Shown piece by piece: positions 38,034 to 41,326 of a stretch of 64,000 nucleotides of DNA. The DNA is from Microbacterium abyssi (GTDB lineage: Bacteria; Actinomycetota; Actinomycetes; Actinomycetales; Microbacteriaceae): NCBI RefSeq assembly GCF_015277895.1, contig NZ_CP063815.1, positions 1,612,001 through 1,676,000 on the forward strand. The letters are read 5' to 3'. The notes under the pieces are model-generated. The model searched no databases and had not been told where the DNA came from. It saw only the letters and a list, made by a program, of their open reading frames with translations. Numbering within the stretch: the stretch's first letter is position 1; each line of letters opens with the position of its first letter. The translations under genes were made by a program, and so were the position numbers.

Positions 38034-39248
38034 TCACAGCCCCGCGGCGCGGCGCAGCTCGTCGGCGCGCTCGGTGCGCTCCCAGGTGAAGTCCGGCAGC
38101 TCGCGGCCGAAGTGACCGTATGCGGCGGTCTGACGATAGATCGGACGCAGCAGGTCGAGCTGCTCGATGATCGCCTGCGGGCGCAGATCGAAGACCTGCC
38201 GGATGGCGTTCGTGATCACCTCGTCGGAGACGCGGCCGGTGCCGAATGTCTCGACGTACAGCCCCACGGGGCGTGCGACGCCGATCGCGTAGGCGACCTG
38301 GACTTCGAGGCGGTCGGCAAGACCTGCCGCGACCGCGTTCTTGGCGACCCAGCGCATGGCATAGGCGCCGGACCGGTCGACCTTGGACGGGTCCTTGCCG
38401 CTGAACGCTCCGCCGCCGTGCCGAGCGGCGCCGCCGTAGGTGTCGATGATGATCTTGCGGCCGGTGAGACCGGCATCGCCCTTCGGTCCGCCCGTCACGA
38501 AGGGCCCCGCGGGGTTGATGAAGTAGCGGTCGCCCGACGGCATCTCGAGTCCGGTGTTCTCCAGCACCGGGTCGATGACCAGCCGCCGCACTTGTTCTTT
38601 GAGCTCGTCCTGCGACACGTCGGGGTGGTGCTGCGTCGACAGCACGACGGCGTCGATCGTCTTGGGGGTGAAGCCCTCGTAGCCGAGCGTGACCTGCGTC
38701 TTGCCGTCGGGGCGCAGGAAGCCGAGCTCGCCGGATCGGCGAACCTCGGTCAGTCGCTCCGCAATCCGGTGGGCGGTGTGTCCGGCCATCGGCATGAGTT
38801 CGGGCGTTTCGACGGTGGCGAAGCCGAACATGATGCCCTGGTCGCCGGCGCCGAGGCCGTCCAGCGCGTCGCTGGAGCTGCCGTCGCGGTGCTCCTGTGC
38901 GAGGTCGACACCGTGGGCGATATCGCTGGACTGCTCCCCCACCGATACGCTCACGCCGCACGAGTCTCCGTCGAAGCCGGTCTCGCTCGAGGTGTAGCCG
39001 ATGCCGTTCACGACCTCGCGGACGATGGTCGGGATGTCGACGTACGCCTCGGTGCGGATCTCGCCGGCGACGTGCACGAGACCGGTCGTGACCAGGGTCT
39101 CGACCGCGACGCGCGATGCGGGGTCCTTGGCGAGCAGGCCGTCGAGGATGCTGTCCGAGATCTGGTCGCAGATCTTGTCGGGGTGCCCCTCGGTGACGGA
39201 TTCAGATGTGAAAAGGCGCAGTGCGTTCACCTCGGAGGCAGCCTTCAC
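38034..39248 (-). CDS. metK: S-adenosylmethionine synthetase
   Basis: 404 residues. It makes S-adenosylmethionine from ATP and methionine. [27 protein letters not shown] and [16 protein letters not shown] are the family signatures. GTG 39248 forms a GTGA overlap with the rpoZ stop; an alternative GTG at 39230 lacks that coupling. In mycobacteria and streptomycetes coaBC lies between rpoZ and metK; here the two genes overlap. Confidence 0.97.
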
Positions 39249-39502
39249 TCGACGTGGCGAAGGCGGAGCTTGTCCTCGTTGATCTCATGCAGCGCGATGG
39301 TCAGCGGCTTGTCCTCGACGGACGAGTCGACCAGCGGTCCGACGTTGTCGAACAGGTTGCCCTCGTGCAGATCTGCGTAGTAGTCGTTGATCTGGCGGGC
39401 GCGCTTGGACGCGTAGATGACCAGCTCGTACTTCGACTCGACGCGGTCGAGCAGGTTGTCGATGGGCGGGTCGATGATGCCCTTGGTGTGGTGTCCGGCC
39501 AT
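39245..39502 (-). CDS. rpoZ: RNA polymerase omega subunit
   Basis: 85 residues. It helps assemble the beta' subunit. The N-terminal [20 protein letters not shown] and the basic [11 protein letters not shown] are the omega core. Start ATG 39502 with GGAGG 7 bases upstream. It follows gmk by a 65-base gap and overlaps metK by 4 bases. Confidence 0.95.
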
Positions 39503-39567: not shown

Positions 39568-40488
39568 TCAGCGCGCGGTCGCCTCAGACAATTCTACGAC
39601 CTCGCGCGCCGCCGCGGCGACGTCCTCGTTCACAATGCGGTAATCGAACTCGCTCTGAGCGGCCAGTTCGACCTTGGCGGTGCGCAGGCGACGGGTGCGC
39701 TCCTCCTCGTTCTCGGTGCCGCGTCCGACCAATCGGTGCACGAGCTCGTCCCACGATGGCGGCAGTAGGAAGATCAGGGTCGCTGACGGTTCTGCGGCCC
39801 TCACCTGCCGTGCGCCCTGCAGGTCGATCTCGAGAAGGACCGTCTTGCCCTCGGCGAGAGCCGCGTCGATCGGCGCGCGCGGCGTGCCGTAGCGGGAGCG
39901 GTTGTGGACGACCGCGTACTCGAGCAGCTCGCCGTCGGCGATGAGCCGATCGAACTCGGCGTCGTCGACGAAGTAGTAGTGCACGCCGTCGACCTCGCCG
40001 GGACGCGGTGGGCGTGTCGTCGCGGATACCGATAGGTGGATCTCCGGGTGGTGCTCCCGGATGTAGCCGGCGACGGTGCCCTTGCCCACCGCCGTCGGGC
40101 CGGCGAGCACGAGGAGCCGGCTGCGTCCGGCGCGGGGCGCGGATGCCGGGAAGCGCTCGTCGAGCCAGTTCGTGAGGCTCACCCGCTGCCGCACACCCAG
40201 ACCGCCGAGACGCTTGACGGGCGAGATGTCGAGGTCGAGCAGCACGCGGTCGCGCTTGCCGACGCCGATCGCGGGCAGAGCAAGGAGGAAGTCGGTGATG
40301 CGCATGGAGCCTGCCACCGATTCCGCGTCGGCGAACGCCTGTGCCGCGACGGACTGCGGGGTGACGACGCGCATGGTCAGATCGCGCTTCAGCGATGCAC
40401 GGGCGCGACGCCGCTCCACGGCGCGGCGTGCGGCCGCGGCGCGATCCACTTCGGGGACGGTGCGCGTGGAGACGCTGCGCTCAGACAT
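39568..40488 (-). CDS. gmk: Guanylate kinase fused to an mIHF-like N-terminal domain
   Basis: 306 residues, against about 190-210 for guanylate kinase alone. Residues about 125-306 are the kinase: P-loop GPTAVGKGT (130-138), TTRPPRPGEVDGVHYYFV (GMP binding), YGTPRAPID, LLEIDLQGARQV and the late RRLRTAKVELA. Residues about 17-112 resemble mycobacterial integration host factor: a basic helix RRAVERRRARASLKRDL, then ITDFLLALPAIGVGKRDRV and ISPVKRLGGLGVRQR, the helix-two-turn-helix DNA-binding part. No start codon suits a separate kinase. In mycobacteria mihF and gmk are adjacent, so this is most likely a gene fusion. ATG 40488 overlaps the pyrF end by 8 bases. Confidence 0.93.
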   Translation of the reverse strand: MSERSVSTRTVPEVDRAAAARRAVERRRARASLKRDLTMRVVTPQSVAAQAFADAESVAGSMRITDFLLALPAIGVGKRDRVLLDLDISPVKRLGGLGVRQRVSLTNWLDERFPASAPRAGRSRLLVLAGPTAVGKGTVAGYIREHHPEIHLSVSATTRPPRPGEVDGVHYYFVDDAEFDRLIADGELLEYAVVHNRSRYGTPRAPIDAALAEGKTVLLEIDLQGARQVRAAEPSATLIFLLPPSWDELVHRLVGRGTENEEERTRRLRTAKVELAAQSEFDYRIVNEDVAAAAREVVELSEATAR

Positions 40489-41322
40489 CGAGTGCCTTCC
40501 GATAGTGGGCGACGCGGTTGTCGATCGCCGTGACGATGCCGTCCGGGCCGGCGGAGAGGATGCTGCGGCTTTCGGAGGCGATCACCATCGACGCGGATGC
40601 CCTGAAGCGCGCATGCAGGTCGGCGGGGCCGGCGCCCTGCGCGCCGAATCCTGGAGCGAGGATGGGGGCGGGAGGGGCGAACGGCGTGAGTCCGGCGTCG
40701 GTCCAGTCGACGGTCGCCCCGATCACGAAGCCGAGGCTCCCCCACTCGCCGACCGGGGTGGCCGCGGCGTTGCGGGTGCAGACCTGCGACACGATCTCTG
40801 CCGAGACCGCCTGCTCTGCCGCGGTGCGGGCGCGCTGCAGACCTGCGGCCTCGGGATTGCTCGTCGCGGCGAGCACGAACACGCCCTTGCCGTGCCCGTG
40901 GGCACGCGCGAAGGTGCTGTCGAGAGCGCCGACGCCGAGGAACGGATTCACCGTCACTGCGTCGGCCTCCAGCGGCGAGCCGGGCGTGAGCCAGGCTTCG
41001 GCGTACGCGTCCATGGTCGTTCCGATGTCGCCGCGCTTGGCGTCGGCGATCACGATGAGGCCGGCATCCCGCGCCGCTCGCAGCACGTCTTCGAGCGCCG
41101 CGAATCCTGCGGAGCCGAAACGCTCGAAGAACGACACCTGCGGCTTCACGATGCCGACCCGACCCGAGGCGGCATCCACGGTCCGCAGGCCGAACTCGCG
41201 CACGCCGGCGGCGGAGTCCTCGAGTCCCCAGGAGCCGAGCAGCGCCGCGTGCGGGTCGATGCCGACGCAGAGCGGACCGCGTGCGGCCAGCGCCGCACGG
41301 ATCCGCTCGCCGAACCGTCCGG

Positions 41323-41326
<4 letters not shown>
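40481..41326 (-). CDS. pyrF: Orotidine 5'-phosphate decarboxylase, type 2
   Basis: 281 residues. It converts OMP to UMP, the last step of pyrimidine synthesis. The catalytic Asp-Lys segment is [14 protein letters not shown], with [10 protein letters not shown] near the N-terminus and [10 protein letters not shown] at the phosphate loop. The length and DAKRGD context mark the mycobacterial/myxobacterial subfamily. GTG 41326 overlaps the carB stop by 4 bases (GTGA). Confidence 0.96.

Follow-up and report, generated by a model that had tools for sequence, protein, structure and literature searches.

The locus examined here raises the question of whether a nucleoid protein and a nucleotide kinase are joined in a single polypeptide in Microbacterium abyssi and, if so, how they came together and what each half still does. 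The window, i.e., the whole stretch of DNA analysed, is 64,000 nucleotides long and supplies all coordinates given below. The original prediction placed an uninterrupted frame of 306 residues at 39568-40488, encoding a domain resembling mycobacterial integration host factor (mIHF) followed by guanylate kinase (Gmk). Both the coordinates and the frame are correct, and the strand, which had been left unstated, is minus; the corresponding frame on the plus strand carries three stops. The gene and its immediate surroundings are as follows.

39568..40488, minus strand: complete fused gene encoding an mIHF-like domain and guanylate kinase, a single ATG-to-stop frame of 306 codons and a stop
40481-41326, minus strand: upstream pyrF frame
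40481..40488, minus strand: 8-base overlap of the pyrF end and the fused-gene start, the ATG at 40488 overlapping the pyrF stop
40495..40500, minus strand: GGAAGG, Shine-Dalgarno-like, six bases before the ATG of the fused gene
39245..39502, minus strand: presumably rpoZ, downstream neighbour of the fused gene in the frame list, positioned as in the mycobacterial order mihF-gmk-rpoZ

Frames on the minus strand run in the order carB, pyrF, fused gene, rpoZ and metK. Among named proteins the closest, at 94-96% identity to the fused protein, are Microbacterium aerolatum guanylate kinases.

The N-terminal half contains two overlapping features.

40168..40452, minus strand: mIHF/sIHF-like domain, residues 13-107 (NF041260; PDB 6tob and 4itq; predicted model fits 6bek)
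40171..40332, minus strand: helix-two-turn-helix (H2TH) part, residues 53-106 (Pfam H2TH_5)

The earlier reading of the N-terminus as mIHF-like is backed by significant matches. The actino_IHF model NF041260 covers residues 13-107 and scores 59.9 bits in the protein scan and 61.9 bits in the genome search, around its curated cut-off of 60, while H2TH_5 scores 33.3 bits over residues 53-106 against a cut-off of 27. Searched alone against PDB chains, the N-half matched mIHF 6tob (E 9.9e-13) and sIHF 4itq (E 1.2e-6) and no further chain at E <= 0.01. A profile built from 19 fused N-halves again placed 6tob and 4itq first (1.2e-21 and 5.7e-21), followed by chains of ribosomal S13/S18 with E values no better than 0.008, and comparison of the fused N-half profile with a standalone mIHF profile gave a probability of 99.5%. 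One detail of the original prediction failed: it took GVGKRDRV for the H2TH pattern, and the alignments place the H2TH glycine turn at AIG (residues 73-75) instead.

Structure prediction, which had been suggested as a check, points to the mIHF/sIHF fold, with a long first helix followed by the H2TH part, and the predicted N-half superposes on the DNA-bound sIHF 6bek with an rmsd of 1.4 A over 89 residues. Across mIHF (Rv1388) and sIHF (SCO1480) structures (6tob, 4itq, 6bek) the modelled fold agrees with an rmsd of 1.4-1.6 over 89-90 residues, and the likeness extends to a shared domain match and to the gene position before gmk and rpoZ. Those proteins differ from the present one in that they are stand-alone chains of about 105 residues, whereas here the domain is joined to a kinase in a 306-residue frame, its NF041260 score lies at the cut-off, and the basic motif RRxRGLG of standalone mIHF is replaced by KRxGGLG, reading KRLGGLG in the window protein. 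R170, R171, R173 and P150, in the long M. tuberculosis numbering, are important for DNA binding, and these would presumably correspond to K92, R93, G95 and P72 of the fused protein.

The C-terminal half likewise contains two features.

39571..40122, minus strand: guanylate kinase domain, residues 123-306 (TIGR03263, PF00625; 1znw)
40075..40101, minus strand: P-loop GPTAVGKGT, residues 130-138, from the sequence

The equivalog model TIGR03263 matches residues 124-300 with 216.2 bits, well over its cut-off of 160.45, and GPTAVGKGT occupies residues 130-138, so that the complete kinase and P-loop described earlier stand. Residues 120-306 match M. tuberculosis Gmk 1znw at E 3e-55, with the P-loop and GMP-site stretches aligned, and the kinase domain is about 50% identical to that enzyme (Rv1389; 1znw, 1s4q). 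S155, R159, R162, Y171, E190, Y200, T202 and D222, which we take to be GMP-site residues, are invariant across 69 aligned proteins; in the predicted structure the kinase lobe at about 181-200 has low confidence, with block means of 57 and 49. The bacterial guanylate kinase represented by TIGR03263 is normally a stand-alone chain, whereas here an N-terminal mIHF domain has been added. With both families recognised in one 306-codon frame, the proposed fusion of mihF and gmk is confirmed.

A profile search of the genome carrying the window, which is assembled as one contig, revealed the fused gene as the only mIHF and as the only guanylate kinase over cut-off, a second weak kinase match reaching 16.6 bits. 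A stand-alone second mihF, for which a search had been recommended, was thus not found in this genome, and the sole candidate, a weak mIHF match of 18.6 bits, turned out to be ribosomal protein S13. HU and Lsr2 are still encoded there, one of each. Since the C-terminal half belongs to the kinase family, retains the conserved motifs and is the only copy found, it is predicted to be active and to work as an ordinary guanylate kinase.

How far the fusion extends was assessed in a sampled family which we take to be Microbacteriaceae, on the basis of its nearest named proteins and of the named fused loci. Of 398 family genomes, 362 gave a match to the mIHF model, and these represent 79 of the 85 genera. 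A fusion profile (alignment A1) matched 148 of 150 family genomes, with both domains in one frame in 137; the other 11 comprise nine with the kinase only, one that is frameshifted (G009, locus L114, 86% complete) and one cut by contig ends (G147). Five of the 137 matches held a stop and might have been counted as unfused, an assignment that we rejected after fetching the loci: all five carry both domains in one open frame each, with the stop outside both domains, and a control genome from another family (G477), fetched likewise, yielded two separate frames. A script of our own identified the fusion in 58 of the 60 family loci that were fetched, the exceptions being L114 and L023. The family survey that had been called for shows that the fusion is present in most sampled genomes of the family and not peculiar to the M. 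abyssi genome; and chance or an assembly artefact was dismissed as its source because the arrangement recurs across many assemblies.

The fusion is carried by named loci from, among other genera, Microbacterium, Curtobacterium, Agromyces, Leucobacter and Cryobacterium; these five stand under Microbacteriaceae in a taxonomy listing that covers the first 40 of 71 taxa. Naasia and Planctomonas, also fused, are presumably members of the family, and two fused MAGs (L124 and L163) bear no family name. At L023 (genome G308), at about 1789-2027, the two domains occupy different frames and are separated by some 210 extra bases; four congeners (L010, L013, L014 and L015) are fused, and L023 represents either a secondary fission or a sequence error.

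One open frame might nevertheless leave the cell with two proteins, through an internal start or through cleavage of the linker, which is the following feature.

40123..40152, minus strand: interdomain linker, about residues 113-122, of low model confidence and variable length in relatives

In the predicted model the block 111-120 has a mean pLDDT of 66, with residues 118-120 below 50, and among 58 fused family rows the linker is 10 to 27 residues long. The low predicted confidence of the linker would suit cleavage, and the halves of L023 in different frames likewise fit two products. Among internal codons, GTG 99 is preceded by a Shine-Dalgarno-like stretch equal to that of the ATG at 40488 (-5.7 each), and ATG codon 62 comes near with -5.5. 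Against this, the relatives P0078 and P0091 lack valine at codons 99 and 103, codon 62 is Met in 12 of 59 rows and Leu in 44, and GTG 127 falls within the first kinase strand of the predicted model. A kinase made alone from an internal start, the outcome that the original prediction recognised as fatal to its reading, was consequently rejected: GTG 99 ties with the ATG in signal, but the codon is unconserved in those two relatives, and the ATG has its own GGAAGG. Two separate products are, in our judgement, very improbable.

Outside the family no stop-free fusion appeared among the matches listed. The order sample gave matches to the fusion profile in 147 of 149 genomes, ten of which belong to Microbacteriaceae; nine of these ten span both domains and the tenth (G258) is cut by contig ends. 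None of the 137 other matching genomes showed a stop-free span of the two domains among the matches listed, and at least 12 non-family genomes span both domains with one or two stops. The phylum sample gave 212 matching genomes out of 217, with no stop-free span except in the window's genome among the matches listed, and with at least 37 other genomes spanning both domains with one or two stops, rarely three. Among the named loci (n = 80), 29 are fused, 47 are separate and four have no mIHF. The statement that mihF and gmk are separate neighbours in mycobacteria, followed by rpoZ, agrees with what is reported in PMC6155035.

These at least 12 and at least 37 genomes with adjacent same-frame genes and few stops indicate a likely route to fusion. 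In the phylum sample mihF and gmk often lie in one frame with only a stop and a short spacer between them, and a fusion looks easy. Loss of mIHF also occurs outside the fused family: in family f4 of the order sample all listed genomes, eight in number (G400, G417, G433, G448, G462, G475, G488 and G501), are without an mIHF match, as are G432 and G474 (family f3) and G445 (f18).

Within Microbacteriaceae, 36 genomes gave no mIHF match, and 20 of these, those listed, were searched for Gmk. Sixteen were positive and fall into five genera (g11, g14, g66, g71 and g82); the remaining four gave no Gmk match either and are incomplete assemblies (59-88%). The kinase-only loci have an open frame of 184-219 codons in 13 of 16 cases, and in 14 of 16 about 70 bases at most separate pyrF from the kinase match. 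Longer gmk frames (261, 326 and 450), with no mIHF similarity, occur in three of the four genomes of g71; at one locus of this genus (L082, genome G070) an Ala/Thr/Pro-rich stretch of about 80 residues without mIHF similarity precedes the kinase, and it is short in the other g71 loci.

In a tree built from the products of four neighbouring genes, the family came together with support of 100. This tree requires two changes between the fused and the lost state, with support of 88 for the key grouping, and its strongly supported branches force only one; L108 has fewer than half the columns filled, and long branches lead to L107 and L110. The best reading is that the fusion is real and old, dating to the family ancestor, and that the mIHF half was later lost in some lineages with the kinase kept. 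One fusion and two losses constitute the simplest reading; the tree, which leaves the number of events unfixed, would also accommodate two fusions, or a fusion that came late in lineages where mIHF had always been retained.

The fused mIHF half has diverged. L023 and L114, which are not in one frame, were dropped from the column and rate counts. Most fused rows have KRxGGLG for the standalone RRxRGLG. At the third basic position all 30 standalone rows carry Arg or Lys, whereas 51 of the 59 fused rows have Gly there, 6 have Ala and 2 have Ser. Order-sample mIHF scores are 62-78 bits for the fused proteins (ten genomes) versus 113-149 bits for other families (126 genomes), and NF041260 fell below cut-off in 10 of 30 family genomes, a set which included the most divergent. 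At about 70% kinase identity, core identity is 51% among fused proteins (379 pairs) versus 75% among standalone ones (39 pairs), a gap that is overstated because the standalone rows, 28 for identity and 30 for charge, were the best-scoring of the order sample and their mutual identity is biased upwards. We do not claim fusion as the sole cause of divergence, since our own model likewise gives low scores to the separate mIHF proteins of Arthrobacter, Rothia, Yaniella and Micropruina, and part of the divergence may stem from lineage.

The mIHF half is nonetheless under purifying selection. Among the 14 closest pairs dS was 3 to 35 times dN in 13, the 14th giving no dS, and on these grounds we rejected the idea that the N-half is decaying to become a free leader. 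Between the window and a congener (L098), dN/dS was 0.20 for the mIHF core (0.194/0.951) and 0.09 for the kinase (0.049/0.566). R27, R30, K34, G75 and Q101 are kept in 59 of 59 fused rows, K92 in 58 of 59, and R93 is Arg or Lys in 58 of 59. D15 (59 of 59) and E or D66 (58 of 59) are acids newly conserved in the fused rows, and the median net charge of the core is +8 in fused rows (n = 59) and +6 in standalone rows (n = 30).

What is being selected can be read in more than one way. The N-half may have been repurposed, lacking appreciable DNA binding and acting as a module that aids the kinase in structure, oligomerisation or regulation. The arginine lost from RRxRGLG in every one of the 59 rows would count against retained DNA binding, the conserved D15 and E/D66 could mean a new role, and the low scores of the fused halves point in the same direction. 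The predicted fold is nevertheless close to that of DNA-bound sIHF, the net charge is positive with R27, R30, K34, K92 and R93 kept, and genera without the mIHF half keep the kinase, which is thus independent of it there. We regard such repurposing as unlikely.

The reading we favour, as a whole somewhat probable, is of an ancestral loss of the mihF stop, a flexible linker, an intact kinase, an N-half that is probably a weak DNA binder, and largely independent halves. The stop codon between the neighbours mihF and gmk would have been lost in the ancestor of Microbacteriaceae, giving one protein in which a flexible linker connects a domain of mIHF/sIHF type to a complete guanylate kinase that presumably makes GDP like any Gmk. 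Because the N-half keeps the mIHF fold, a positive net charge and the majority of the conserved basic positions, DNA binding is most likely retained, probably weak and without sequence preference. This would be in line with sIHF, reported as a monomeric DNA binder without sequence preference (PMC10028186), with NMR data reported to place two surface patches of mIHF in contact with DNA (PMC10113261), and with H2TH domains as general nucleic-acid binders (PMC5922973).

The amount of mIHF would now be tied one-to-one to the enzyme and should be lowered. Its former role as an abundant NAP has probably become smaller, in keeping with the divergence, the missing arginine and the subsequent disappearance of the half from some small-genome lineages. 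In Mycobacterium smegmatis, replacement of msIHF by an EGFP, mNeonGreen, PAmCherry or HaloTag fusion is reported to allow wild-type-like growth, and replacement by a Dendra2 fusion to cause a slight growth delay; the tag fusions that grow like wild type suggest that the domain tolerates a large partner. Such tolerance, together with the variable linker and the later losses, makes independent action, as beads on a string, the likeliest mode for the two activities.

A more integrated alternative is that the mIHF half tethers Gmk to the nucleoid, with DNA occupancy and the binding of GMP, GDP or ppGpp interacting. A one-chain combination of enzyme and DNA-binding fold is conserved across the family, and neither domain was found a second time in the genome, as such coupling would have it; if it were true, a central step of guanine nucleotide supply would be built into the nucleoid. 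A linker whose length varies from 10 to 27 residues is at odds with it, as are the pTM of only 0.59 for the full-length model, which suggests no fixed arrangement of the halves, and the retention of the kinase in several genera that have lost the mIHF half. The link between DNA binding and GDP/ppGpp that had been surmised earlier is unsupported beyond co-occurrence, the facts favouring independent halves, and we consider coupling distinctly improbable.

The architecture is already carried by protein databases: both Pfam domains (PF22525 and PF00625) are precomputed in all 240 listed rows, the window protein included, and NF041260 is typed equivalog_domain. The source names of the fused database proteins, where given, are guanylate kinase and, once, hypothetical protein, and none names the DNA-binding half; the fusion thereby hides a nucleoid protein from annotation. 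No paper on an mIHF-Gmk fusion was found among the titles and abstract beginnings searched, a set which leaves out most subscription literature, and a search for papers on arginine mutants gave none; the pair mIHF and guanylate kinase occurred together in none of the papers searched, although gmk is named beside mihF in PMC6155035. The M. tuberculosis mIHF is reported as essential and among the most abundant proteins (PMC6155035, PMC3724605). A nucleoid protein has been welded to an enzyme in most sampled Microbacteriaceae, and by our search some genera have neither a fused nor a separate copy, a natural experiment on what mIHF must do, in what quantity, and how a cell comes to manage without it.

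Genome size provides a minor observation on such losses. Among family genomes of 0.9-1.8 Mb, some of 1.1-1.7 Mb have lost the mIHF half, and genome reduction alone is no predictor of loss, since very small ones, for instance that of 0.9 Mb (G015, locus L107), keep a divergent fused mIHF half.
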